Positions 15,474-36,592 of a stretch of 42,275 nucleotides of DNA are shown in pieces. The stretch comes from Desulfuromonas sp. (GTDB lineage: Bacteria; Desulfobacterota; Desulfuromonadia; Desulfuromonadales; Desulfuromonadaceae), in NCBI GenBank assembly GCA_028685815.1, contig JAQUDG010000007.1, forward strand, positions 1 to 42,275. Direction: 5' to 3'. The notes under the pieces are model-generated. The model was not told the DNA's origin. It was given only the letters and a program-made list of their open reading frames with translations, and did not search any database. The translations under genes were made by a program, and so were the position numbers. Numbering within the stretch: the stretch's first letter is position 1; every line of letters begins with the position of its first letter.

Positions 15474-15989
15474 TTAGACGTATTTTTTCTGCAGTATTTC
15501 TAAGATGGCCCGCAGCAGATTTATCGGCGTAGGGGGGCAGCCCTTGACGCAGGCATCCACAGGGATCACGTTAGCCACCGGCCCGCAACTGGCGTAGCTC
15601 ACGCCGAATTCTCCACCGTTGGTGGCGCAGTCACCCATGGCCACCACTAGTTTGGGTGCCGGGGTGCAGGCGTAGGTACGTTTTAACGCCTCCTGCATAT
15701 GCCGCGATACCACCCCAGTTACCAGCAGCATATCTGCATGACGGGGCGAGGCGACAAAGTGAATCCCGAAGCGCTCGATATCGTAGAAGCTGTTATTGAG
15801 AGCGTGCATCTCCAGTTCACATCCGTTGCACGAACCTGCATCCACCATGCGGATGGCCAAGCTTCCGCCAAAGCTGGCAGCGATCTCGCGCTGGCAGTGC
15901 TTCCCCAGCACTAAAATCTCATCTTCAGGTGCCCCGACTTTCTCGGTCAAGAATCCAGTTTTGCGAATTTTGTTCAGGATTGAAAGCAT
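15474..15989 (-). CDS. ehrS: Ehr complex small subunit (NuoB/HyfI-like)
   Basis: 171 residues homologous to the small subunit of Complex I (NuoB) and group 4 hydrogenases (HyfI/HycG). The ligands of the proximal [4Fe-4S] cluster are present: C54 and C57 in SCNGCE, C121 in MGDCATNGG and C151 in KGCPP. Two further cysteines, C135 and C147, are extra. The protein should therefore carry an electron-transfer cluster at the interface with the large subunit. AGGAAGA provides its ribosome site. It is the last gene, 57 bases after the large-subunit stop. It is named after the ehrABCDLS nomenclature used for Geobacter complexes. Confidence 0.88.
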   Translation of the reverse strand: MLSILNKIRKTGFLTEKVGAPEDEILVLGKHCQREIAASFGGSLAIRMVDAGSCNGCELEMHALNNSFYDIERFGIHFVASPRHADMLLVTGVVSRHMQEALKRTYACTPAPKLVVAMGDCATNGGEFGVSYASCGPVANVIPVDACVKGCPPTPINLLRAILEILQKKYV

Positions 15990-16046
15990 GTCTTGTCTAT
16001 CTTCCTGGTTATGGAGCGTGGCTGTGGCTAAAAAGCATGGTCAGGG

Positions 16047-17684
16047 TTAAAGATCGTGTCCTGCATAGGAGCCATTAATCGATTTATTGCATACCGGAAA
16101 GTCAGGGATGATGTTGCCATGGATCAGCTCCTCTAGCGCCCGCCAGTTGAACCAGCTAGGATCCCGTGGGAAATATCGCTCCACCAAGCCTGCTTCGTTT
16201 AGGCGCACATAGGCGAGGGTTTCCCCGCGCCAACCTTCAACCAAACCTAACCCCGCCACATCACGTCCGTTCGGGGTGATCGCGGTACCAATGAGTCCAT
16301 CCGGCAGCGGGTGGAGCAGCTTCTCGATCAGTTCTGTAGATACTATGATTTCATCTCCACGTACCCTGGTACGCTTCGCTACATCACCTTCGGTATACAC
16401 CGGTACGCGTACCTCAAGGCTGGCATAAGGTGGGTATGGAGCATCTCGGCGCAGGTCATAATCGATGCCGTTCGCCCTGGCTACATACCCCAGGGTTCCA
16501 AGGCTGACTGCGGTCTCATGGGGGATAATGCCGGTGGTACGTAACCGATCTTGCAGGGAAGGGTATTCCAAGATCATGGGCATGAGTTCGGCAACTTCGG
16601 TGCGGAGCATGTGCTGCTCAGCCATTATGGCGGCAATTCCATCTGCATTCAGATCGCGGGTTACACCTCCGGGCTGAATGCAATCCATCAGCAGGCGATG
16701 GCCGAAGAGTTCCATACTCAGGCGTTGAACGCGCTCACGCAGGGCACTGAACTGCACCATGGCAAAGCTGAAGCCTACATCGTTACAGATCGCACCGATA
16801 TCTCCACAGTGATTGGCAATCCGCTCGCGCTCCGCCAGAATAGCGCGCAGCGCTAGCGCACGCGGGGGAATCACAACGTCTAAGGCGTGTTCCACCGCCT
16901 GACACGCAGCCCAACTGTGGGCGATGCTGCTATCACCGCTGACTCGGGCAGCGAGGCGAATCAACCCTGGGATATCCCGCCCTTGGGCAATTTTTTCAAT
17001 CCCCTTGTGCACGTAACTCAAGCGTTCCTCAAGGCGCAGCATATCCTCGCCGATGGTGTGAAAGCGAAAGTGCCCCGGTTCAATAATGCCAGCATGCACG
17101 GGGCCAACAGGGACCTCGTAGATATCCTCTCCCTCCATCTTTATAAACTGGTAGGTTTTGTCCGCTGGGGTGTCTTGCTCTGGAAATCCAGCCACGGGGA
17201 AATCCCTACGCAGCGGATATGCATCTGCCTTCCACGCTTGATGACGTGTCCACGGGCGTGGATCTGGATGGGCTTTGAAGATGATGCCGAACATATCGTG
17301 TACATGGCGCTCGGGTCGACTCGCATTGGGGTAAGTTTTTGCCTGAGAGGGTAGTTCAGGCTTTGAGTCCGGCACTGTTGTGCTAAGGACCAGATGTCCG
17401 TCTTTCCCGGCCAGCACAACCATGAGTATGATGCGTTCGGGAATGTGGTCAGCCCACACCCCAGCCCAGCGCAGCCCGCAGCGTTTGGCGATAACAGCTG
17501 CCTCACTCCAGCCCACAGCGGCGACGGCTATATGCGTAGCGGCCCCATTCGGAATCGTGTAATCGACGGTCATAGTCAAATTACTCCGATGCAGTTGCCA
17601 ACTGCAAGCCTGTATGGAAGCCTTGATGCCTGCTTCAATATCTGCTGTCTCCATCAACTCTTTTTTTAGCTGCGGAGTGGTCAT
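16047..17684 (-). CDS. ehrL: Ehr complex large subunit, fused NuoC+NuoD-like, lacking Ni-Fe ligands
   Basis: 545 residues from ATG 17684, which overlaps the upstream stop as ATGA. An open extension of 15 codons to 17729 is not needed. The first ~165 residues are NuoC/HycE-N-like (HVHDMFGIIFKAHPDPRP, then PLRRDF). The rest is NuoD/HycE-like, with GPVHAGIIEPGHFRFH. In real hydrogenases the next motif is RxCGxC. Here it is RVSGDSSIAHS (247-257), with S249 and S252 replacing both cysteines. The C-terminal DPCxxC reads DFPVCNKS (528-535), with only C532. Nickel binding is therefore not expected. This is the defining trait of Ehr complexes, intermediate between Complex I and group 4 hydrogenases. 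Confidence 0.92.
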   Translation of the reverse strand: MTTPQLKKELMETADIEAGIKASIQACSWQLHRSNLTMTVDYTIPNGAATHIAVAAVGWSEAAVIAKRCGLRWAGVWADHIPERIILMVVLAGKDGHLVLSTTVPDSKPELPSQAKTYPNASRPERHVHDMFGIIFKAHPDPRPWTRHQAWKADAYPLRRDFPVAGFPEQDTPADKTYQFIKMEGEDIYEVPVGPVHAGIIEPGHFRFHTIGEDMLRLEERLSYVHKGIEKIAQGRDIPGLIRLAARVSGDSSIAHSWAACQAVEHALDVVIPPRALALRAILAERERIANHCGDIGAICNDVGFSFAMVQFSALRERVQRLSMELFGHRLLMDCIQPGGVTRDLNADGIAAIMAEQHMLRTEVAELMPMILEYPSLQDRLRTTGIIPHETAVSLGTLGYVARANGIDYDLRRDAPYPPYASLEVRVPVYTEGDVAKRTRVRGDEIIVSTELIEKLLHPLPDGLIGTAITPNGRDVAGLGLVEGWRGETLAYVRLNEAGLVERYFPRDPSWFNWRALEELIHGNIIPDFPVCNKSINGSYAGHDL

Positions 17685-19147
17685 AACACACCTTTTCCCG
17701 TAATCATGATGGTGGCCTGATCGATCCAACCGGCTAGAACATCAGGCACGGCAATGCCGAGCCACAGAATAATGCATAGATGCACTGCCACCGGCCACAT
17801 GTTCGCTTTTACCTTAACTTGCCCTGTGGGACATTCCCCGAACACCATGGGCTGCACGTGGCGAAACAAGCCAGCAAAAGCTACACTCAGGCCGAACAGG
17901 AGTGAAATTACCAGCCAGGGGAAACTTTTAATGGTTGCGCTGAAGAGGAGGAATTCACTGGTGAAGACTCCGAAGGGCGGCAACCCGGCAATGGCTATCG
18001 TGCCGATGAGCAGCCCCCAGCCAATTTCCGGTTGGGTCTTTATTAAACCACGAATTTTGTCGATGGACTGGGTTTGACATACCTGTGCAGCATGGCCAAC
18101 GGTTATGAAAATCGCCGATTTAGTCAGGGAATGGACAATCATGTGCAGCAGGGCCCCGAATGTCGCCAGTGGGCCCCCAATGCCAAAGGCAAAGGTAATA
18201 AGTCCCATGTGCTCTATGGAAGAATAACTAAACATGCGCTTGATATCGCGTTGCCGGTGCAGGAGCAGACCCGCCACCAGAAAAGAGAGTAAGCCAAACG
18301 CCATCATAATATGTCCAGCTATATTGGAACCAAGGGCCGGGTCGATGAGCATCTTAAAGCGTACTACCGCATACAGCGCGATATTAAGCAGCAGCCCAGA
18401 GAGGATGGCCGACATCGGTGTCGGTCCTTCGCTGTGGGCGTCCGGCAGCCAGTTATGTAGGGGCACAAGGCCAATCTTGGTGCCATAGCCCACTATCAGG
18501 AATACAAATGCGAGCAATAAAACGGTGGGCTCAAGTTCTGATGCGTGCTCGTACAGCACACTCCACATCAGGGCCTGATTGTTGTCGGGCATAATCTGCA
18601 CCGCAGCAAAGTAGATCAGAGTCGTACCAAACAGCGCCTGGGCGATGCCAACCCCACAGAGAAGGAAGTATTTCCATCCTGCTTCGATAGATTTCGGGGT
18701 GCGATACAGGCTTACCAGCAATACTGTGGCCAGGGTTGCACCCTCTACCGCGACCCATAGAATCCCCAGATTATTGGTCAGCAGTGCCAGCAGCATGGTA
18801 AATAGAAACCCCTGATACATACTGTGATACAGGCGCATCCCTCCAGCTTTAACTTTTCCTATACTCTGTTCGTGTGCCATATACGGAGACGAAAAGATTG
18901 CGGTAGTCATACCGACAAAGGAATTAAGTAGCACCAAGTAGACGTTAAACGCGTCAACGTAAAAAAAGTTCTGCGGCGTGAGAATGGAACCATGGAAAAA
19001 CACATCAGCCGCCAACCGCAGCGATGTAATGAAGGTAGCGATACAAAAGAGCAGATTCAGCCTGCCGGCAATGCGCTTATGCCCGCAAAAGGCAAGCACC
19101 ACTGCGCCTGTCAGCGGAAGCAACAGGGTTAGGTAGAGAGCATTCAT
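17681..19147 (-). CDS. ehrD: Ehr antiporter-like subunit D (HyfF/NuoN-type)
   Basis: 488-residue polytopic membrane protein of the proton-translocating antiporter-like family (HyfF, NuoL/M/N). The conserved TM5 glutamate is in WVAVEGATLATVLLVSLYR and the TM7 lysine in GYGTKIGLVPLHNWLPDAHS, which is the signature of these subunits. These residues carry protons in Complex I, so the subunit probably couples electron flow to ion transport. It shares one base with the previous ehrC stop (TGATG) and its own stop overlaps the ehrL start (ATGA), so translation is coupled. Confidence 0.92.
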   Translation of the reverse strand: MNALYLTLLLPLTGAVVLAFCGHKRIAGRLNLLFCIATFITSLRLAADVFFHGSILTPQNFFYVDAFNVYLVLLNSFVGMTTAIFSSPYMAHEQSIGKVKAGGMRLYHSMYQGFLFTMLLALLTNNLGILWVAVEGATLATVLLVSLYRTPKSIEAGWKYFLLCGVGIAQALFGTTLIYFAAVQIMPDNNQALMWSVLYEHASELEPTVLLLAFVFLIVGYGTKIGLVPLHNWLPDAHSEGPTPMSAILSGLLLNIALYAVVRFKMLIDPALGSNIAGHIMMAFGLLSFLVAGLLLHRQRDIKRMFSYSSIEHMGLITFAFGIGGPLATFGALLHMIVHSLTKSAIFITVGHAAQVCQTQSIDKIRGLIKTQPEIGWGLLIGTIAIAGLPPFGVFTSEFLLFSATIKSFPWLVISLLFGLSVAFAGLFRHVQPMVFGECPTGQVKVKANMWPVAVHLCIILWLGIAVPDVLAGWIDQATIMITGKGVL

Positions 19148-19821
19148 CAGTCAACCTCTTTCAGGAGATTGAGTTTGTCGACATCGAGGGTGCCGAACTC
19201 CGTTCGAATCTGGAAAAAGAAGATGCCGAACAGAATGGCCGCCACCAGCACGTCTAGCGCCACCCCCATCTCTACCACCATGGGCATGCCTTGAGTTGCC
19301 GCTACAGCAGCGAACATCAGGCCGTTTTCCATGCACATAAATCCGACCACCTGCACCACCGCCTTCCGGCGTGAGATAATGAGCAGCATCCCCAACAGCA
19401 CAATCGCCAGCGATACCGCAATGGTGTTGCGGGTTGCCAGCATGGAAAGTTCGCGTATAGGGAGAACAGCATAATAACTGAAGAGCACCAGCGCTGCGGC
19501 CCCGAACATAATCAAGGATGGGTTGCCCACCACCTCAACTTCGCGTTTAATATCCAACCTGGTGACCAGTTTCTGCATCTGTATCGGGATAAAAAACACC
19601 TTTAATCCCAGGGTTAGAGCTGCTGAAATTAATAAATGGTGCCGCCCATAGGTGAATGCTATTACCAAGGTAGTAGCAAACAACAGGGCGCCCTGCAGTG
19701 CAAATATATGGATCAGGGTCAGCAGGCGGGTCTGCGCGAGAAGTAAAAAAGAGGTGAACAGCATGAGCGCCGCTAGGGTGAGAATTATCTGTTCCGCCAG
19801 GGTTAAGACTGTGAAATTCAT
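19147..19821 (-). CDS. ehrC: Ehr membrane subunit C (HyfE-like)
   Basis: 224-residue integral membrane protein resembling HyfE of hydrogenase-4 (an NuoJK-like module). Hydrophobic helices recur along the length, and the segment MCMENGLMFAAVAATQGMP in the C-terminal third is the NuoK-like part, with a membrane glutamate in MCMENG. It shares its first base with the last base of the ehrB stop, and likewise downstream with ehrD. No catalytic role is expected. It probably contributes to the proton channel. Confidence 0.85.
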   Translation of the reverse strand: MNFTVLTLAEQIILTLAALMLFTSFLLLAQTRLLTLIHIFALQGALLFATTLVIAFTYGRHHLLISAALTLGLKVFFIPIQMQKLVTRLDIKREVEVVGNPSLIMFGAAALVLFSYYAVLPIRELSMLATRNTIAVSLAIVLLGMLLIISRRKAVVQVVGFMCMENGLMFAAVAATQGMPMVVEMGVALDVLVAAILFGIFFFQIRTEFGTLDVDKLNLLKEVD

Positions 19822-20771
19822 CAGTGCACCTCCAGTATTACGTGGCCAAGCATCCCCAGCAGGGCGATTATGAAAGCCAGACTCAGAAGTTCCGGGGTGC
19901 GGAACAGGCGCATCTTGGCTAGGACCGACTCAGATGCCGCCAGCACGAAACCTATCCCCATTAGTTTTATCCCCAGAGTCAGCAATCCAACGGCGATGGC
20001 GGTCGGCTCGAGGTGCAGGGCGGTGCCCCAGGGGAGGAACAGGTTGCAGATTAAAACTCCGAATATCAGCATTTTCAGCATCGAAGCCCACTCCAGCAGC
20101 GCAAGGTGACGTCCACTGTATTCCAGAATCATGGCCTCATGTATCATGGTGAGTTCCAAGTGGGTGGCCGGATTGTCGATGGGGATGCGCCCACACTCAG
20201 CGACACCCACCAGCAATAGGCTCATACCGGCAAAAATAAACGATGGATAGATCTGGAACGGCTGAGTCAACGTATGGAGCACCATAGCGTCCAGATTGGT
20301 GCTGGTAAAGGTCATGGCTAGAGTGAAAATAGACAGCAGCATAGCCGGTTCTGTCAGAGATGAAATAGTAACCTCACGCGATGCACCCATTCCTCCAAAA
20401 GCGGTGCCGAGGTCCATCCCCGCCAGACATAAAAAAAAGCGTGCCAGCGCAAAGAAACCCACCATCACAATGACATCGGCAATGACAGCTGTAGGCAGGC
20501 CCACCGCAAACGCGGGAACGATTGAACTGGCCAGCACGGTTACACTGAACACCAAATACGGTGTGGCACGAAACAGCGGAGAAGCCTGTTGCGCCATAAC
20601 CACCTCTTTGCGAAACAGCTTGGCCAGATCGCGGTAGGGCTGCCACGGAATGGGGCCGCGCCGATTCTGAAATTTGCACTTCACCCATTTGATCCAACCG
20701 CTCAGCAAAGGAGCGAGCAAGATCAGAAGTGCTGTCTGCCCTAGTGCAAGAATCCAACCGCTCACATTCAT
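19821..20771 (-). CDS. ehrB: Ehr membrane subunit B (NuoH/HyfC-like)
   Basis: 316 residues, NuoH-like, the membrane subunit that in Complex I contacts the peripheral arm next to the quinone site. The motif PLLSGWIKWVKCKFQNRRGP near the N-terminus matches the HyfC/HycD form. The central FARFFLCLAGMDLGTAFGGMGASRE is the typical loop with acidic residues, and EYSGRHLALLEWASMLK follows. ATG 20771 forms an ATGA overlap with the ehrA stop and is preferred over ATG 20783. It sits between ehrA and ehrC as in hydrogenase-4 operons. Confidence 0.92.
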   Translation of the reverse strand: MNVSGWILALGQTALLILLAPLLSGWIKWVKCKFQNRRGPIPWQPYRDLAKLFRKEVVMAQQASPLFRATPYLVFSVTVLASSIVPAFAVGLPTAVIADVIVMVGFFALARFFLCLAGMDLGTAFGGMGASREVTISSLTEPAMLLSIFTLAMTFTSTNLDAMVLHTLTQPFQIYPSFIFAGMSLLLVGVAECGRIPIDNPATHLELTMIHEAMILEYSGRHLALLEWASMLKMLIFGVLICNLFLPWGTALHLEPTAIAVGLLTLGIKLMGIGFVLAASESVLAKMRLFRTPELLSLAFIIALLGMLGHVILEVH

Positions 20772-22774
20772 ATGACTATCCACAACATAACGATAAGAGT
20801 AAAAAAGGAATACGCCAGATAGGTGCGGATATTCCCACCTTGAATCTTGGTGACCATTTTCGCACTGCGCTGAATCATTCTGCCCAGAGGTAGATAAAGT
20901 TTTTCCCAGGCCCAGTCGCCGACGTGCACAGAATAACGTCCACCATCTTCTGCGGTGCTGGGAGGATCAACCCTCTCGTCTATAGGCCAAATAGGACGAA
21001 AAATACGTCGAATTGGCTGGGAAAAACTTGTAGCCGTATATTGGTTACGCGTACTCAGCGAGCCGAAACCGCAATCCCACCTGGGGCTGTAACGCACCGG
21101 AGTTTTTCGCCGCCGCGGATGTAACAGCAGATAGGCGCCAGCCCAGGCAATGCTTATACCAAACAGGACTAGAGGGGCACCATATGAGGACGCCCGTGCC
21201 GAAATGGGGGTGAGCCACAACCATCCACCGGATTCAACCTGACTCAGGCCGATACCTAGCAGGTCAGTGGGGATGGTTTGCATACTGTTGATTGCCGCGC
21301 TGGGAAAAATCCCCAGTAGCAGACAACCCGACGCTAGTAAGATCTGACTTGCACGCATGCCAAAAGAGACTTCGTGTGCCTGTAACGTATCCTGATGGCG
21401 CGCCTGCCCTAGAAATGCGATACCAAACACCTTGACAAAGCAGGCTGCAGCCAGCGCCCCCGTAAGGGCTAGCGAGGCGGCGGCCACCGCTATGATGGAT
21501 TTAGTGACCCCACTATCCAGCACTGTGCCTTGCAGAGCGGTCTGAAATGTGAGCCATTCGGAGACAAAACCGTTAAATGGCGGCAACGCAGAAATGCTGA
21601 TGCATCCCACCAGAAAACACATGGCAGTTATGGGCATGAGGCGCATCAGGCCACCCATCCGATTTAAATCATGCTGACCACTTTGATTGATAAGTGCACC
21701 CGCTCCAAGAAATAGAAGGCTTTTGAACAGGGCGTGGTTAATGCAGTGGTACAGTGCCGCTACCAGGCCTAAGGCCGCAAGGACAGGGTTTCCGTTACTG
21801 GCAAACAACACCGATAAACCCAGCCCCATGTAGATTATGCCGATATTTTCTACACTGGAGTATGCCAGCAGGCGTTTTAAGTCTTGTTGCATTAGGGCAT
21901 AGAGAATCCCCAACAAGGCCGACGCACACCCAACCAGCAGAATGATAACTCCCCACTGCCAGTGGAAGGTGCCAAGCAGACCGTAGCAGAAGCGGATAAA
22001 ACCATAGACTGCCACCTTTAACATCACACCCGACATTAAGGCTGAGATGTGCGAAGGCGCTACTGGGTGTGCCTGAGGTAGCCATACATGTAGGGGAACA
22101 ATCCCTGCTTTCATGCCAAAGCCGATAAAAGCTAAGGCAAAGGCGATATGTTGCCAGTGCACCGGCAGGGTTGCGGCCTGCATGTCAGTGAAGGTGAAAC
22201 CGGAGCCGAAGCCGGCCAAGACCCCGTACCCCAGCAGGATAAATAAGCCACCAACCTGTGCCATGAGCAGATAGATGAATGCTGCATCGACATTTTCTTT
22301 CTTGTGGTGGTCATGGGCTACTAGAAAGTAGCTCGCAACCGACATCAGTTCCCATGCAACCATGAACGAGAACGCATCGGCCGCCAGGATAACCAGATAC
22401 ATCCCAGCCACGAATAGACCGGTGAAAAATGCCAGGGTGCGCGCTGCGGCTAAATTACTGACACTGCCTATGACATAGCTCGGTCCGAACAGCGAGATGA
22501 TTGCCGTGACTCCCCCGACAATAAGGAGGAAAAAACCCGCCAACGGGTCTAGGTGTTGATGGCTGTTAAGCCATGGCAGACCAATGGGCAAAACCAGGTT
22601 TAAGCTGCAACCTGTGAGCATCCCCATGCATCCGCTCGTAGCTGTGGCCAGGCCAGATAAGCCCAACAAGGTAAACGCCATACGCGCTCCGGTGCTTATG
22701 CTGCGCACGGGGAGAGACACCGCCGCCGCTAGTAAAGCCAAAAACACTCCGAAATGAGCTAGATGTAAATACAT
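20768..22774 (-). CDS. ehrA: Ehr antiporter-like subunit A (HyfB/NuoL-type)
   Basis: 668 residues from ATG 22774. The frame is open another 33 codons, into the regulator gene, but CAGGA lies nine bases before 22774 and the product then starts directly with a hydrophobic helix. It is an antiporter-like ion-translocating subunit: WELMSVASYFLVAHD carries the TM5 glutamate, GFGMKAGIVPLHVWLPQAHP the TM7 lysine, and NHALFKSLLFLGAG a further lysine. The cytosolic C-terminal segment RWDCGFGSL followed by QYTATSFSQP is typical of HyfB/HycC. Two antiporter-type subunits (A and D) mean the complex could move more than one ion per electron pair. Confidence 0.93.
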   Translation of the reverse strand: MYLHLAHFGVFLALLAAAVSLPVRSISTGARMAFTLLGLSGLATATSGCMGMLTGCSLNLVLPIGLPWLNSHQHLDPLAGFFLLIVGGVTAIISLFGPSYVIGSVSNLAAARTLAFFTGLFVAGMYLVILAADAFSFMVAWELMSVASYFLVAHDHHKKENVDAAFIYLLMAQVGGLFILLGYGVLAGFGSGFTFTDMQAATLPVHWQHIAFALAFIGFGMKAGIVPLHVWLPQAHPVAPSHISALMSGVMLKVAVYGFIRFCYGLLGTFHWQWGVIILLVGCASALLGILYALMQQDLKRLLAYSSVENIGIIYMGLGLSVLFASNGNPVLAALGLVAALYHCINHALFKSLLFLGAGALINQSGQHDLNRMGGLMRLMPITAMCFLVGCISISALPPFNGFVSEWLTFQTALQGTVLDSGVTKSIIAVAAASLALTGALAAACFVKVFGIAFLGQARHQDTLQAHEVSFGMRASQILLASGCLLLGIFPSAAINSMQTIPTDLLGIGLSQVESGGWLWLTPISARASSYGAPLVLFGISIAWAGAYLLLHPRRRKTPVRYSPRWDCGFGSLSTRNQYTATSFSQPIRRIFRPIWPIDERVDPPSTAEDGGRYSVHVGDWAWEKLYLPLGRMIQRSAKMVTKIQGGNIRTYLAYSFFTLIVMLWIVI

Positions 22775-22814: not shown

Positions 22815-23501
22815 TTAATGTTGCGCGGAAAGAAGTTTTTTCTCAGCTGTCCGTATCGCCTTAATAACTTCATCGCGCCTTGGCTGAGTTGCCAGCATTT
22901 TTCTGAGAGCGGAATCTCGCAGCACCATGTGTAGTAGCGATAAAAGGTGCAGTTGAATGCGCAGTGACGGAGACACTACAATAATTAAGGTGTGAACCAA
23001 TTTTCCATCCAGTGCCGCAAACTCAACCGGGTGCTCCAAAAAGCATATATTGACCTTGGCACGGATAAGATGTTCCAGAATCGCATTGCGTGGGTGGGGT
23101 AGAGCGATGCCATCTCCTATGCCGGTAGAGGAGAGTTCTTCCCGAATGAGTAATACCTGTTTGAGCATTTTCAAGTCCGCCTCATCGGGCATTCGCAGAT
23201 GATTTACCGCATCTGCGAGTACTTCGTCCCGATTGTTGCCCGCCACTCTGTATATGATCCCTCCGGCACTAATTGAATCAGCCAGACTCGGGAGGGGCTC
23301 TTTTTCACCCTGAGTAATTTCAAAGGGCTCTTCAATGACATTGCGGCGCTTGGAAGTGGCCCAGTCAAGTAACTCCGCTCGCTTAAACCTATAGCTTCCG
23401 TGCACCTTATAGGTAGGAACTAGATTGCGTTTAATCCAACGGTAGACGGTTTTTTCGGATACAGACAGCAATTTGGCGGTCTCTTTGACGTTGACGTACA
23501 T
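22815..23501 (-). CDS. HTH domain fused to PTS EIIA-type domain (regulator)
   Basis: 228 residues. Residues 1-50 are an excisionase/MerR-type DNA-binding domain (VKETAKLLSVSEKTVYRWIKR, then GSYRFKRAELLDWA). Residues 78-228 are an EIIA (fructose/PtsN-type) domain with the phosphorylatable histidine H136 in GIALPHPRNA. Together these suggest a DNA-binding regulator that reads PTS phosphorylation state. It is the first gene of the operon, 40 bases before ehrA, and so probably controls or senses for the Ehr complex. No EI or HPr gene lies in the window. Regulation by phosphorylation is inferred. Confidence 0.88.
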   Translation of the reverse strand: MYVNVKETAKLLSVSEKTVYRWIKRNLVPTYKVHGSYRFKRAELLDWATSKRRNVIEEPFEITQGEKEPLPSLADSISAGGIIYRVAGNNRDEVLADAVNHLRMPDEADLKMLKQVLLIREELSSTGIGDGIALPHPRNAILEHLIRAKVNICFLEHPVEFAALDGKLVHTLIIVVSPSLRIQLHLLSLLHMVLRDSALRKMLATQPRRDEVIKAIRTAEKKLLSAQH

Positions 23502-31571: not shown

Positions 31572-32633
31572 ATGTTTGGATCTAAAAAAGAGATTATTGG
31601 GATAGATATTGGTGCGAGTGCAATCAAACTAGTACAGCTAAAGGAATCCAAATCAGGCTATAAACTCAAAGCTCTTGATCTGGAAGCACTGCCATCCGAG
31701 GCTGTAGTTGATAGTTCCATCATGGACTCCAACACAGTAGTGCAGGCCATAAGAGATTTGATTGTTCGCAACAATCTGAGCAAGAACGCAGAGGTTTCCA
31801 TCGCCGTATCAGGCCACTCTGTAATCATCCGCAAAATATCCCTTCCATTAATGACAGATGAAGAGCTCGATGGGTCAATACAGTGGGAAGCTGAGCAATA
31901 CATCCCTTTCGATATAGCAGATGTCTATCTGGATTACCAAATTGTCGGTCCAGATCCCGCCGATCAGGGGCAGATGGAGGTGATTCTTGTTGCTGCCAGA
32001 AGAGATTTTATCAACGAATATACGGGTGTAATTAGAGAGAGCGGGCTAGTGCCTGTAGTTGTTGATGTTGAATGTTTTGCTGTTGAAAACATTTACTGCT
32101 CTTTATATTCCGATGGACTTCTCGATGTCGTAGCGCTGATCGATATAGGTGCCAGTGCCGCTCAACTCAACATCCTCAAGGATAATATTTCGGTCTTTAC
32201 GCGTGAGATCCAGATGGGGGGCTCCGCCTACAATGAAGAACTGCAGAAGCACTTCGGACTTAATAACGAAGATGCCGAAATTCTTAAATTAAGTGGTTCG
32301 TTCGAAGGTGTAGACAGCGAGGAGGCACACACCGTTATTGATAAGGTTACTGATAACCTTGTCCAAGAACTCGCGCGTGCACTGGATTTCTTTTCTGCTA
32401 CTTTTAACGATGAGAAAGTATCCAAAGTATATCTTACCGGGGGAGTATGCCTTACCTCTGGGCTGATGGATAAGTTTGAACATTCGTTAGAAATGCCTGT
32501 GGCACTGCTGGATCCATTCAGTCGCATAGGTGTCAAGGAAAGTGTTTTTGACCTTGAATTTGTCAAAAAATCTGCTCCTTTCTATGCCGTCGCTGCCGGT
32601 CTAGCTACGAGAACCTTTGGAGACAAGATATGA
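31572..32633 (+). CDS. pilM: Type IV pilus inner-membrane alignment protein PilM
   Basis: Actin-like cytosolic ATPase-fold protein, 353 residues, that binds the N-terminus of PilN and links the pilus motor to the alignment complex. The opening IGIDIGASAIKLVQLKE is the PilM/FtsA-type phosphate-1 loop. ALIDIGASAAQLNI in the middle is the phosphate-2 element, and VYLTGGVCLTSGL the adenosine motif. Length is the family norm. GGGACGGGAA provides a ribosome site before ATG 31572. Its stop overlaps pilN (ATGA). Confidence 0.95.
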   Translation: MFGSKKEIIGIDIGASAIKLVQLKESKSGYKLKALDLEALPSEAVVDSSIMDSNTVVQAIRDLIVRNNLSKNAEVSIAVSGHSVIIRKISLPLMTDEELDGSIQWEAEQYIPFDIADVYLDYQIVGPDPADQGQMEVILVAARRDFINEYTGVIRESGLVPVVVDVECFAVENIYCSLYSDGLLDVVALIDIGASAAQLNILKDNISVFTREIQMGGSAYNEELQKHFGLNNEDAEILKLSGSFEGVDSEEAHTVIDKVTDNLVQELARALDFFSATFNDEKVSKVYLTGGVCLTSGLMDKFEHSLEMPVALLDPFSRIGVKESVFDLEFVKKSAPFYAVAAGLATRTFGDKI

Positions 32634-33205
32634 TTAAAATAAATCTCCTTCCGGTAAAGGCGGTACAGAAGCAGATTCAGATGCGGAACAATCTGCTGGT
32701 GACGGTTGCTATGCTGTTACTAGTGGGTGGAGTATGCTATGTCTTTCAATCTTCTATAACCTCGGATATTGCTACGGTAGAACAAGAAATAAATGATAAC
32801 CGACGAGAAATTAGCAGTCTGAAGAAAAAGATAGGCGAGGTCAATCGATTCAAGAAACTGCAGGCAGAACTGCACAACAAGCTTAAAATCATGAACGAAC
32901 TGCGCGCGTCCAAGTCTGGACCCGTGCATTTGATGGACGAAGTTATAACCGCTCTGCCAGAAAAAATGTGGCTCACCTCATTGTCCGAAAAAGACGGCAC
33001 GGTGCATATCAGCGGAGTTGGACTTACCGAAAACGATGTAGCTACTTTTATGACCAATTTAGAACGTTCTCTGTATTTTTCCAAAGTGGATCTGAAAGTC
33101 ACTAAGCAAAAGGTGCAAGATGGTCTGAGGTTGCAGAGTTTCGATCTATCCTGTCGCGCAGAGAATCCTGCTATCCCAGATGAAGATAAACAGGGGGAAC
33201 GCTAA
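32630..33205 (+). CDS. pilN: Type IV pilus alignment protein PilN
   Basis: 191 residues. The start MIKINLLPV is the conserved PilN opening, the cytosolic peptide that binds PilM. One transmembrane helix (about 21-40) follows, then a periplasmic coiled coil (45-90) and a fold similar to PilO. It forms the inner-membrane PilN-PilO platform. ATG 32630 overlaps the pilM stop by four bases, and pilO starts two bases after its own stop, indicating one transcript. Confidence 0.93.
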   Translation: MIKINLLPVKAVQKQIQMRNNLLVTVAMLLLVGGVCYVFQSSITSDIATVEQEINDNRREISSLKKKIGEVNRFKKLQAELHNKLKIMNELRASKSGPVHLMDEVITALPEKMWLTSLSEKDGTVHISGVGLTENDVATFMTNLERSLYFSKVDLKVTKQKVQDGLRLQSFDLSCRAENPAIPDEDKQGER

Positions 33206-33207
33206 CC

Positions 33208-33798
33208 ATGAACCCGCAAATAGAAAAAATTTTAAAGCTCCCCCTGTATCAGCGGGTGCTTATTCTGGTAGCAGTGCTGGTTTTGCTGGTTGGAGCCTAC
33301 CTGTATTGGCTTTATATCCCTGCACGTGAAGAGCTTGCTACTAAGCAATCTCAGAACAGCAAGTTGTTGATTGAGCTGCAGGAAAGCAGACGTATCGCCA
33401 ATAATCTGCCTAAATTTAAGGCAGAATATGAAGAGATGAAGAACCGGCTAGATCTAGCTTTAAATGAGTTGCCGAATGAAAAAGAAATTCCCACTCTCCT
33501 TAGCAGTATAACAAGTTTGGCACGCGACAATGGACTTGAAGTTTTGCAGTTCAAGCCTGAAAACGAAGCCGTTAAAAACTTTTATGCCGAAGTCCCTGTA
33601 AGCTTAGACTTGAAGGGTAGCTATCATCAGATGGCGCTTTTTTGTCAGGCGGTAGCGCGGATAGCGCGCATTGTAAACGTAAAAGATATTAAGTTGAGTA
33701 AGCCGCAGCAAGACGCTGGTATTACCCTCTTATCTATTTCGTGCCGCACCGTTACCTATCGTTTCATCGAACCGCCCAGTACAGAGAAAGGAAAATGA
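33208..33798 (+). CDS. pilO: Type IV pilus alignment protein PilO
   Basis: 196 residues: a short cytosolic start, one membrane helix (about 15-37, RVLILVAVLVLLVGAYLYW), a coiled coil (40-80), and a ferredoxin-like periplasmic domain that pairs with PilN. The family is recognised by this layout and by order between pilN and pilP. CAGGGGGA provides the ribosome site. Its stop overlaps the start of pilP. Confidence 0.92.
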   Translation: MNPQIEKILKLPLYQRVLILVAVLVLLVGAYLYWLYIPAREELATKQSQNSKLLIELQESRRIANNLPKFKAEYEEMKNRLDLALNELPNEKEIPTLLSSITSLARDNGLEVLQFKPENEAVKNFYAEVPVSLDLKGSYHQMALFCQAVARIARIVNVKDIKLSKPQQDAGITLLSISCRTVTYRFIEPPSTEKGK

Positions 33799-34322
33799 AT
33801 ATGCGCCTATACGCTGTAATTCTTGCCTTCCTCGCCTTCTGGATGGTAACGGGGTGTTCAGACAACAAACCAAAAGAGTTAAAGCCAGTCCAAACTCGAA
33901 GCACTGCCCCTGTACGTTCCGCACCTGATACCACTGAAGAAGTAGCTACCGTTGAGGCTGAGCCCATAAAGCCGAAGTTTATGTATGACGAGCGGCGACG
34001 TGACCCGTTCTCATCCCTACTGGCAATAAAAGATCCGGTTACGGATGATGCTGAGCCCCTGACCCCACTGCAAAAGTTTGGCCTAAACGAAATGCGTCTC
34101 ATTGCAATAGTGGTCGGTAAAGACGAGCCACGTGCTATGATTGAGGCCCCAGACAGTAAGGCATACACCCTGACTCCTGGAGTTAAAATAGGTAGAAATA
34201 AAGGGGTTGTGCAAGCAATAACTCCACATGAAATCATTGTTGAGGAGCGTTTCCGTGATTTCGCTGGAACAACGCGGACAGAAATTAAGCGCATTACGCT
34301 GCCTCATGGAGAAGGGGAATGA
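33795..34322 (+). CDS. pilP: Type IV pilus lipoprotein PilP
   Basis: 175 residues. Signal peptide with lipobox VTGC gives lipidated C21. A Pro-rich, Glu-rich linker (24-60) follows, then the beta-rich PilP domain (MRLIAIVVGKDEPRAMIEAP), which contacts PilQ on one side and PilN/O on the other. ATG 33795 overlaps the pilO stop (ATGA). ATG 33801 two codons on is an alternative. AAAGGAAA is close upstream. The stop overlaps pilQ. Confidence 0.92.
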   Translation: MNMRLYAVILAFLAFWMVTGCSDNKPKELKPVQTRSTAPVRSAPDTTEEVATVEAEPIKPKFMYDERRRDPFSSLLAIKDPVTDDAEPLTPLQKFGLNEMRLIAIVVGKDEPRAMIEAPDSKAYTLTPGVKIGRNKGVVQAITPHEIIVEERFRDFAGTTRTEIKRITLPHGEGE

Positions 34323-36592
34323 ATATGAAATTCAAAAATACTTTACTGCCAACGATGCCGTTGGCTTTGTTGTTCGCGCTGCTATTGCTACCCGCTTTAG
34401 CGCCTTTAGTCCATGCACAGTTAAATACGGTTACATCAGTGGAACTTGGGGTTGATTCCGTATCCGTTGTTACTGATATAGATAATCCTGAATTTATTAC
34501 CTATACCCTTGGGGCCCCTGAGCGCTTGGTAGTGGATGTGGCGCACGTCACACCTACTTTTGTTGAACGCTCTTATATGCTGAGTTCTGTGAATAAGGTC
34601 GGTTTCGATACTATGCGAGTTGGGGTTTATGCAGATAAGACAAGATTTGTCTTTGATGCTGCTGGTGGTAGTTTGCCCCATGCTGAAGTGTATGTGGATG
34701 GGCGAGAAATCGTCGTGGACTGGTCTGGCGACATGGCAGGACGCCGTGCGGTGAAGACCACTACTCAAACAAAGACAGGGACTAAGCTTGTTTCTGCGCA
34801 AAAAACTTTTGCTAACTCAGCAGATGCTCCAGCCGTGGCGACTGCCTTAAGTTTTGATCTTGAAGGAACAGGATCTGTTTTTATGGCAGATTTTGTTGGG
34901 GCTACGCAGCAGATTGAATTGATCCAGCCACGTACGCAAGGAACCACCGTACGCTTTGGAGTTGCTCACGCCGCTTTGCCCAGAAATCTTCGCCGAGTAA
35001 TAGACGCATCGGTATTCCCCAGCTCTGTCTTACAGGTAACGCCATATTCCACCATAGTTGACGGGGTACGCAACGTTATGTTTGCAGTGCAACTTAAAGG
35101 TGCGGTTGAATATGAAGTAGCTTTGAAAAAAGGCGTCCTTGAATTTCGTTGCGATAATGGCATTTTCGCCGATCTTCCCTCTGAAAATATGCAGATAAGC
35201 GTTGATATTGACAGCTCTAGTCATGGTGCATATGGGCCTAAGTCAGCACAAGCACCGCAATATAGGGATGATTCTACCAATGATATTGAGCATAGCCCGA
35301 CAGTTGGAGCGGTGCTTGAATCGCTATCTGTTGACGCTCGTACCGAAACTGTACATGAAAGGGCGTTGGAAAAAACATACACCGGAGAGCCGATATCTCT
35401 TGTGTTTGACGATGCGGATATTCGTAAGGTTATGCGCCTCATAGGGGAAATCAGTGACATGAACCTGATTGTCTCTGAAGAGGTTCAGGGCAAAATATCT
35501 CTACGACTACAAGGTGTTCCATGGGACCAAGCTCTAGATCTAGTGCTCGAAATTCAAGAGTTAGGGATGATTCAGAAGGGCAATGTAGTGCGAGTTCTCC
35601 CGCTGAAAAAAATTCAGTCCATGGAAACAGAGCGTCTGCGTTCCAAACAGGAAATAAAACGCCTAGAAGAGACCGGAACAGAAATATTTGCCATCAACTA
35701 TAAAGATGCAAAATCGTTTGAAGATGTAATCAAAGATATGCTCTCAGATCAGGGCAAGGTCAAGGTGATTAAGGGGAGCAAGAAGATTATGGTCACTGAT
35801 ATCCCCTCTAAATTGGATGAAGTTAGGGACCTCCTCAAGGTACTGGATGAGCCGGCCAAACAAGTAATGATTGAAGCGCGTATCGTCGAAGCAAACACCT
35901 CAGACGGTTTAGAATTTGGCGTAAACTGGGGCTTCAGCTACGACAACAATGAAACAGGTGGTATTGGCTTAGAAAATATGGATTCAGCCGGTATCGGTTT
36001 GGGAGGATCATTTCTTCTCCCCGGTGCCATTGGAACCTCCGGTTTGGGAGGTAAGTTTACCTTTGGTCGCTTAGGCTTCGATGATAAGGTTTTAGATCTT
36101 AGAATTGCAGCATTAGAAACTGCGGGCAAGGGGCGCGTAGTTTCTTCGCCAAAAGTTCTGACTCTTGATGGTGAAACTGCCAAAATAGAGCAGGGTACGT
36201 CTATTCCCTATCAATCTGTAAGTCAAAATGGGACTACTACTGAGTTTGAAGATGCTACCCTTGCTCTTGAGGTTACTCCTGAGATTAATCCGGATAATAC
36301 GGTCATCCTTAAAATTAAGGCAACCAATAGCACTATAGGCAGCACTGTTTCTACTGGTGCTGGGAGCGCACCGTCCATCGACACCAAGGAAGCAACAACC
36401 AAACTGCTCCTTAAAAATGGTGAAACTACAGTTATTGGTGGGATTTATGTGGAAAGCGAATTAAGTAGTGAGACAGGAACCCCAATTCTCAAAGATATTC
36501 CCCTGCTGGGTTACTTGTTTAAATCACGCAAAAAAGGCAATATAAGAAACGAATTATTGATTTTTATCACGCCCCGTATAGTTGAGCTATGA
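34319..36592 (+). CDS. pilQ: Type IV pilus secretin PilQ
   Basis: 757-residue outer-membrane secretin forming the pilus exit channel. A signal peptide ends at about VHAQ (33-34). Two AMIN-like peptidoglycan-binding domains follow at roughly 38-130 and 175-290, then an STN/N0 domain (365-430), a secretin N1 domain (450-520, EIFAINYKDAKSFEDVIKDM), and the C-terminal secretin barrel ending in PLLGYLFKSRKKGNIRNELLIFITP. A Ser/Thr-rich, glycine-rich loop is at 540-590. ATG 34319 overlaps the pilP stop (ATGA). A terminator follows, so it closes the pil operon. The TPR lipoprotein at 3824 is a plausible pilotin. Confidence 0.95.
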   Translation: MNMKFKNTLLPTMPLALLFALLLLPALAPLVHAQLNTVTSVELGVDSVSVVTDIDNPEFITYTLGAPERLVVDVAHVTPTFVERSYMLSSVNKVGFDTMRVGVYADKTRFVFDAAGGSLPHAEVYVDGREIVVDWSGDMAGRRAVKTTTQTKTGTKLVSAQKTFANSADAPAVATALSFDLEGTGSVFMADFVGATQQIELIQPRTQGTTVRFGVAHAALPRNLRRVIDASVFPSSVLQVTPYSTIVDGVRNVMFAVQLKGAVEYEVALKKGVLEFRCDNGIFADLPSENMQISVDIDSSSHGAYGPKSAQAPQYRDDSTNDIEHSPTVGAVLESLSVDARTETVHERALEKTYTGEPISLVFDDADIRKVMRLIGEISDMNLIVSEEVQGKISLRLQGVPWDQALDLVLEIQELGMIQKGNVVRVLPLKKIQSMETERLRSKQEIKRLEETGTEIFAINYKDAKSFEDVIKDMLSDQGKVKVIKGSKKIMVTDIPSKLDEVRDLLKVLDEPAKQVMIEARIVEANTSDGLEFGVNWGFSYDNNETGGIGLENMDSAGIGLGGSFLLPGAIGTSGLGGKFTFGRLGFDDKVLDLRIAALETAGKGRVVSSPKVLTLDGETAKIEQGTSIPYQSVSQNGTTTEFEDATLALEVTPEINPDNTVILKIKATNSTIGSTVSTGAGSAPSIDTKEATTKLLLKNGETTVIGGIYVESELSSETGTPILKDIPLLGYLFKSRKKGNIRNELLIFITPRIVEL

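Follow-up and report, generated by a model that had tools for sequence, protein, structure and literature searches.

An Ehr-type complex of Desulfuromonas sp. with conserved loops around the former nickel site

What does a hydrogenase-like membrane complex do when its nickel site is gone? The question is raised by an operon of Desulfuromonas sp. (GCA_028685815.1, contig JAQUDG010000007.1, forward strand, positions 1–42,275); this whole stretch of 42,275 nucleotides is called the window below. Six minus-strand genes, running from 22774 to 15474 and overlapping or nearly abutting, match hydrogenase-4 subunits B, C, E, F, G, and I, in the order HyfB-like, HyfC/NuoH-like, HyfE-like, HyfF-like, EhrL (a NuoC–NuoD fusion), and EhrS (NuoB-like). 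The matches are beyond chance, with family E-values as low as 2.7e-234, and the same gene set was found again in several phyla among the best 80 of 576 relatives. An initial annotation had described six coupled hydrogenase-4/complex I-like genes, and the common strand, the overlaps, and the Pfam and NCBIfam matches bear this out. Judged by its genes, the complex is a six-subunit member of the complex I/group 4 hydrogenase superfamily and belongs to a clade of Ehr (Ech-hydrogenase-related) complexes that we call type A, the sister clade being type B. The absence of nickel-binding residues from Ehr complexes has already been published, and in the same papers the function of Ehr is called unknown or is only hypothesised (PMC12342949, PMC10284858, PMC10432482, PMC4378227, PMC7304191, PMC6349859). 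These accounts agree with the remark in the annotation that Ehr function is unsettled and treat Ehr as one thing.

EhrL (16047–17684, minus strand) has 545 residues from the ATG at 17684, starting with MTTPQ, and matches Pfam Complex1_49kDa, Complex1_30kDa, and NiFeSe_Hases. Among proteins of solved structure, its closest relative is HycE from the E. coli formate hydrogenlyase (7z0s_E, phmmer E = 2.2e-61). The alignment of the large subunit with NuoD and HycE, which the initial annotation had suggested, was run, and the CxxC + CxxC nickel ligands of a group 4 [NiFe] hydrogenase are not found in EhrL. The HycE CGIC, with C241 and C244, aligns to S249-G250-D251-S252 (SGDS, 16929–16940, minus strand), and HycE DPCYSC, with C531 and C534, aligns to N537-G538-S539-Y540-A541-G542 (NGSYAG, 16059–16076, minus strand), so that S249, S252, S539, and G542 replace the four ligands. 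The annotation was right about the two serines at the first CxxC, but it had placed DFPVCNKS (residues 528–535, 16080–16103, minus strand) in the position of DPCxxC. This octapeptide is an Ehr signature upstream of the ligand position and aligns to HycE DAPLIIGS. Four Methylococcales relatives (L211, L212, L226, and L227; these and similar numbers are our own handles for loci) have ICGVC ... DFPLVNKSFELCYSCTDR, that is, the DFPxxNKSF signature and all four cysteines together. These relatives, which carry DFPLVNKSF plus an intact ELCYSC, are the strongest evidence that DFPVCNKS is not the DPCxxC position, and as a second nickel motif it was ruled out by the HycE alignment, the ligand-bearing relatives, and the structure. 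Cys-532 within it is not ligand-equivalent; 12 of the 87 type A sequences have N or I instead. The hydrogenase-type glutamate loop, EPGHFR (residues 202–207, 17064–17081, minus strand), is as in HycE, while NuoD has G at 202 and H at 201.

An AlphaFold model of EhrL, the only subunit modelled and as a single chain, has a mean predicted local distance difference test score of 87.4 and a predicted template modelling score of 0.90. Its best match in the PDB is HycE (7z0s_E), with Z of 45.6 and a root-mean-square deviation of 2.1 for 514 aligned residues. The structural match pairs the final residue, 545, with HycE 537, consistent with the offset in the sequence alignment; the protein terminates three residues after NGSYAG, close to what we take to be the maturation cleavage site of HycE. 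HypD is required for making the Fe(CN)2CO group, and it has no match in the host genome, which is 99.37% complete; thus, the host could hardly build a [NiFe] site. The loss of the nickel site proposed in the initial annotation is supported by the absence of all four ligand cysteines in the alignments, with the absence of HypD as independent evidence. We also considered HypD as an order-wide correlate in Methylococcales, where it is present in 89 of 121 genomes; of the 59 genomes that have an Ehr-like match, just 5 lack it. This distribution says little; the correlate was dropped, and only the absence in the host genome is used here.

Has the emptied site decayed? In 38 type A sequences, the mean entropy of the loops at 193–208, 247–256, and 526–545 is 0.32 bits, compared with 1.52 bits in the rest of the domain, and a value as low was reached in 2 of 5000 random placements. 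Residues were compared in a set of 131 rows from which the incomplete L090 was omitted, and whose 87 type A rows include one genome twice (L012, L060); L123, which has a stop codon, L128, and L131 were dropped from one comparison set. Asp-251, between the former cysteine positions, is present in 113 of 113 Ehr sequences (87 type A, 26 type B), while this position is V, L, or I in 11 nickel-ligand-bearing sequences and L in 6 NuoD. H197, E202, N533, K534, S535, and G542 are invariant across both Ehr types. Position 249 is S in 85 of 87 type A sequences, the others being one V and one C (L118); all but one of the 26 type B sequences have A there. Position 252 is S, T, or A. The positions that we equate with His38 and Tyr87 of Nqo4, which bind the quinone headgroup in complex I, are I201 and G250 in all 113 Ehr sequences. 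By this measure, the former active-site loops are the most conserved part of EhrL, a pattern unlike that of a relic in decay.

The small subunit, EhrS (HyfI/NuoB-like, 171 residues, 15474–15989, minus strand; Pfam Oxidored_q6, E = 3.2e-31), has cysteines at 54, 57, 121, and 151, which make one [4Fe-4S] set, and further cysteines at 32, 108, 135, and 147. All four proximal-cluster cysteines are present in 79 of 79 type A small subunits, and CxxCxxCxxxC in none of them; one genome is counted twice in these 79 (L041, L060), and 8 of the 80 named loci, several of which are clipped by contig ends, gave no small subunit. Anywhere in the 80 named loci, CxxCxxCxxxC followed by P occurs only in L101, outside the operon, and in L137, in type B. 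Type B small subunits, where cleanly called, have about 250 residues and start with a HycF/NuoI-like [4Fe-4S] domain. With E. coli HycF or HyfH as the query, this domain was detected in 14 of the type B regions L041, L043, and L045–L057, the one miss among these 15 being L046; in the 80 named type A loci it was detected only in L060 and L137, both times inside an adjoining type B operon. The fused domain is thus missing from the window, as it is from all 79 type A small subunits. The latter have about 170 residues, keep some 18 N-terminal residues of HycF (roughly MLxIxxKIxxTGxxTE), and continue directly with the NuoB-like part. In EhrS, residues 1–18 (MLSILNKIRKTGFLTEKV; 15936–15989, minus strand) are the remnant of this N-terminal peptide, identified by a scoring test and by alignment with the fused type B subunits. 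For the test, 59 type A small subunits with a plausible start were chosen and every fourth was scored; the mean BLOSUM62 score of their N-termini against HycF/HyfH was 19.1, compared with a position-permuted mean of −7.5 (sd 5.2) and 0 of 20000 permutations as high, and 15 other E. coli N-termini scored at most 0.2.

These results indicate that the HycF/NuoI-like 2×[4Fe-4S] domain is deleted in type A, with its N-terminal peptide left on the NuoB-like domain, so that only the proximal cluster remains in EhrS. The cysteines of the domain are already partly lost in L045, L051, and L057, three of nine aligned type B subunits, and the fused HycF–HyfI small subunit of L211 and L212 lacks part of the first cluster motif. 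A separate NuoI-like 2×[4Fe-4S] subunit was found neither in the operon nor in the window, the host's own complex I genes elsewhere not being counted; the sole motif match in the window is antisense to another gene. The claim of an intact Fe-S relay in the initial annotation hence does not hold, although the four cluster cysteines that it listed are all present.

The membrane arm comprises two antiporter-like subunits, a NuoH-like subunit, and a HyfE-like subunit. The HyfB/NuoL-like gene (20768–22774, minus strand) matches NCBIfam hydrogenase 4 subunit B with E = 2.7e-234; its open frame extends to 22873, and the start at 22774 was chosen to avoid overlap with the upstream regulator gene. The HyfC/HycD/NuoH-like subunit (19821–20783, minus strand, GTG start; Pfam NADHdh, E = 3.7e-36) can be aligned with HyfC, HycD, and NuoH. 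The HyfE-like subunit (19147–19821, minus strand) matches the NCBIfam hydrogenase 4 membrane subunit with E = 2.6e-28, at 99 bits, under that model's cut-off of 136, and the HyfF/NuoM-like subunit (17681–19147, minus strand) matches hydrogenase 4 subunit F with E = 2.1e-222. In the HyfB-like subunit, numbered in a 701-residue frame, E175 in transmembrane helix (TM) 5, K255 in TM7, K286 in TM8, and E439 in TM12 align to E144, K234, K265, and E407 of NuoM. The HyfF-like subunit has E135, K224, and E398, with N255 at the TM8 lysine position, as in E. coli HyfF. The TM5 Glu/TM7 Lys pair is thus kept in both antiporter subunits, as had been annotated, and we infer from these residues that the arm still moves ions.

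Where does the complex come from? A tree was made of 80 large subunits out of the 131 rows, with the root placed outside the Ehr and ligand-bearing rows and with long branches flagged by the program. Type A is supported at 100/98, type B at 100/100, and A + B at 99/96. The nickel-ligand-bearing Methylococcales clade is the next outside A + B, and the three together (67 rows) are separated from the HycE/HyfG, other group 4, and NuoD rows at 100/100. In the window's order, type A EhrL is found in 7 of 58 genomes, including that of the window, and is 59–63% identical to the window's protein, compared with 33–40% for type B; a clear second HyfB-like gene is seen in 7 of 15 type B regions, some of which are cut. 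The window falls in a clade of seven (100/98), with six members from its order and one metagenome-assembled genome (MAG) named Desulfobacterales. Its nesting in a mostly gammaproteobacterial part of type A suggests horizontal transfer. The operon is widespread, occurring in methanotrophs, purple sulfur bacteria, rhizobia, Azospirillum, Nitrospirota, and Desulfuromonadia. Type A and type B operons adjoin on one contig in L043, L060, L102, and L137, whose hosts are Geothermobacter, another genome of the window's order, a Geobacteraceae MAG, and Piscinibacter; this suggests that the two types work together.

The Methylococcales group with nickel ligands shares the DFPxxNKSF signature with the window and adjoins types A and B in the tree. 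Unlike the window, it keeps CGVC and ELCYSC, and it can therefore be a hydrogenase. By their motifs, L211, L212, L226, and L227 (genomes G118, G146, G099, and G164) are an intermediate between hydrogenase and Ehr. These relationships suggest descent from a HycE-like [NiFe] hydrogenase, in which HycF was fused to the small subunit, the nickel ligands were then lost, and the ferredoxin domain was finally deleted in type A. This order of steps is the simplest because the HycF–HyfI fusion is found both in type B and in L211 and L212.

Several known systems can be compared with the complex. The Ehr of Geobacter sulfurreducens (GSU0739-45) resembles it in having HyfB/C/E/F-, EhrL-, and EhrS-like subunits, no nickel ligands, and a function that the literature calls unknown (PMC12342949, PMC10284858, PMC7894505). 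The Geobacter cluster has seven genes, compared with six in the window's operon, and is presumed to be type B. In the tree, the type B rows of Desulfuromonadia stand in for the Ehr sequences named in the literature. The initial annotation had assigned the genes to an Ehr-type complex of the Geobacter kind; the Ehr type stands, but the window's complex lies in a clade separate from type B, which most Ehr-bearing relatives in its order carry and which is the presumed Geobacter kind. In the type B operons of the window's order, the HycF domain is fused to EhrS, whereas the window's clade has no ferredoxin domain. E. coli formate hydrogenlyase-1 and hydrogenase-4 share with the window an identical EPGHFR loop and the hydrogenase-type CxxC of the small subunit, at which complex I presumably has adjacent cysteines. 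They differ in that EhrL is without the four nickel ligands and the C-terminal extension, and in that there is no HycB, HycF, or FdhF gene at the window locus. Complex I (NuoB, NuoCD, NuoH, NuoL/M) has the same fold, fused NuoC–NuoD layout, and antiporter charge pattern, but its quinone-headgroup positions differ and the window operon is without NuoI and NuoEFG. Pyrococcus MBS/MBX (6u8y) is far more distant from EhrL than HycE by phmmer score (3.2e-21); it is a member of the superfamily without a full NiFe site and has a different subunit make-up. In the literature searched, Coppi 2005 and Marreiros 2013 apart, there is no report of a ferredoxin-less subtype, a ligand-bearing sister, or the link with SulP described next.

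An Ehr-like match is present in 59 of 121 Methylococcales genomes. For 61 of the 66 Methylococcales rows (57 genomes), the five least identical (35–38%) being omitted, a SulP gene lies no more than 12 kb from EhrL in 28 type A loci, always upstream and on the same strand, compared with about 0.5 expected by chance; this and the other chance estimates for SulP are rough and were made after the pattern had been seen. The distance to EhrL is about 7 kb in 24 loci and about 1.2–1.8 kb in 4. The first slot is just before the HyfB-like gene, as read in L198, L199, and the named loci, and taken from the distance in the rest; at the second distance, the SulP gene separates F from G in L195 and L196 and immediately precedes EhrL in L197. 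The other 33 of the 61 loci have no SulP, and at least six of these, among the plus-strand loci that were checked, have less than 7.5 kb of contig upstream. In the order of Thiorhodococcus, Ehr occurs in 50 of 119 genomes, and SulP lies 6.8–7.4 kb before EhrL in at least 4 of the 50, two of them on the other strand; chance would give 1.0 SulP within 12 kb and 0.04 in that 1-kb slot. Genome completeness was not given for either order. A divergent SulP gene lies between EhrL and EhrS in the Geobacteraceae MAG (L102). No SulP-like gene was matched in the window.

SulP regions without Ehr were also inspected (L175–L194, methanotrophs). A DUF2490 or histidine-kinase gene is nearby in 15 of the 20, the kinases being a large family; it is at the region edge in L177 and upstream in L190 and L192. 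In several methanotrophs, Ehr lies between SulP and the DUF2490/histidine-kinase genes, which adjoin SulP in loci lacking Ehr; the arrangement looks like an insertion of Ehr into a SulP–DUF2490/kinase unit. A STAS domain was found by Pfam in 2 of 5 scanned SulP proteins (L083, L081) and not in the other 3. A can/cynT-like (beta) carbonic anhydrase was found in 0 of the 20 regions, alpha and gamma types not being sought. As a recurrent neighbour of Ehr, carbonic anhydrase was rejected, with matches only at L052 (type B) and L098 (type A) in L039–L138; with two matching loci and none of 20 stand-alone SulP regions, no partnership is claimed. A formate dehydrogenase (FDH) partner at the locus was likewise discarded: FdhF- and HycB-like genes have no match in the window (tblastn, E ≤ 1e-3; genes elsewhere in the genome not sought) or in the 80 named loci (E ≤ 1e-5; some clipped by contig ends). 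Clustering of neighbours present at five or more loci gave SulP, a small XRE-type helix-turn-helix (HTH) protein, two-component and chemotaxis-type regulators, and antisense artefacts. The XRE-type protein, of about 95–105 residues, is encoded ahead of the HyfB-like gene of type A Ehr in many Chromatiales and alphaproteobacteria (L067, L073, L078, L109, L111, L115, L123, L128, L130, and others).

What, then, is the function of the complex? It probably performs a job other than that of its hydrogen-making ancestor. The reading that we favour, tentatively and at somewhat short of an even chance, is a repurposed one-cluster ion-translocating complex. Its membrane arm would still move ions, and this movement would be driven or gated by a small polar substrate, through binding and protonation or through one-electron chemistry, in the former NiFe pocket, now predicted to be lined by H197, E202, D251, S/T252, N533, K534, and S539. 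Electrons, if involved, would enter singly via the sole [4Fe-4S] cluster of EhrS, and the donor may be a ferredoxin or flavodoxin with an unlinked gene, which would dock where loss of the HycF domain has bared a face of the complex. The substrate would not be H2 and would probably not be quinone in the complex I binding mode. Several points weigh against this reading. Ion pumping is deduced from conserved residues, and in one of the two antiporter subunits, the HyfF-like one, the TM8 lysine position holds Asn. No redox partner gene recurs beside the operon, an unlinked partner not having been sought, and the conserved cluster of EhrS could be structural. The confidence of the EhrL model is lowest exactly at 195–203 and 541–545, so the list of pocket residues depends on the alignment.

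A non-redox machine working with SulP is possible, though we are doubtful of it; conversion of an anion or of inorganic carbon in the pocket that once held NiFe would be powered by an ion gradient or would help to build it. Analogues of such a machine would be the gradient-linked CO2-hydrating NDH-1 and DAB systems. The 28 of 61 Methylococcales loci with SulP, the SulP gene inside the operon of L102, the occupied slot in at least 4 of 50 Thiorhodococcus-order genomes, and the seating of Ehr beside the DUF2490/kinase genes all speak for it, and so does the loss of the electron-input parts; the SulP link hints at anion or inorganic-carbon chemistry. SulP beside carbonic anhydrase has been proposed as a bicarbonate transporter (PMC6458275, PMC11423575). 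However, SulP is missing from the window and from 33 of 61 Methylococcales loci, the short upstream contigs noted above included. The absence of beta carbonic anhydrase from all 20 Ehr-free regions and the STAS domain in 2 of 5 proteins allow more than one SulP class and substrate (sulfate, formate, or bicarbonate), and the cluster cysteines in 79 of 79 small subunits favour redox. A more definite version, which we think rather unlikely, is that type A Ehr has no substrate-oxidation electron chain and that its head is an anion or CO2/HCO3− site coupled to the pump arm and working with SulP; if true, this would be a gradient-coupled inorganic-carbon or anion system made from a hydrogenase. Slightly less credit still is given to a complex I-like quinone oxidoreductase, in which electrons from a donor would travel by way of the proximal cluster to a quinone lodged where EhrS, EhrL, and the NuoH-like subunit meet. 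The shared NuoD fold (Z about 40), the NuoB-like cluster, and the NuoH-like subunit would suit it, but I201 and G250 occupy the headgroup positions in 113 of 113 Ehr sequences and neither NuoI nor NuoEFG is among the six genes. A formate-hydrogenlyase-like or FDH–Ehr complex making or using H2 or formate is improbable. Ehr proteins of Geobacter are more abundant with formate than in hydrogen-containing conditions (PMC7894505), and FDH–Ehr has been proposed in other lineages (PMC6349859); yet no FdhF- or HycB-like gene lies in the window or the 80 named loci (unlinked FDH genes not sought), the nickel ligands and the host HypD are absent, and there is no ferredoxin domain to accept electrons from FDH. 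A non-functional relic under relaxed selection, as was concluded for Ehr in Geobacter KN400 from its lost NiFe centre (PMC13194489), we find hardly credible, because the former active-site loops are better conserved than the rest, and the operon recurs in several phyla.

The gene before the operon (22815–23501, minus strand) encodes a regulator in which HTH_17 is fused to a phosphotransferase system (PTS) EIIA domain, PtsN-like by Pfam, with LPHP at residues 134–137, which we take to resemble the phospho-histidine site of PtsN. It recurs ahead of Ehr operons of both types in the window's order, filling there the slot that the XRE-type HTH protein has elsewhere. EIIA-Ntr proteins affect potassium transport, and by analogy such a neighbour would fit control of an ion pump. 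Farther along the window, at 31572–36592, there are pilM-, pilN-, and pilO-like genes and a secretin gene for type IV pilus assembly, an ordinary set, after which come genes for 3-dehydroquinate synthase and type II dehydroquinase.

The coupling of redox chemistry to ion pumping in complex I and the related hydrogenases is among the central problems of bioenergetics. Across the relatives described here, first the catalytic metal and later the electron relay have been removed, while the pump is kept and the emptied site is under the strongest constraint. This makes type A Ehr a system provided by nature for testing which functions of the head the pump arm requires, and the split into subtypes, together with the SulP link, gives testable hypotheses on Ehr.

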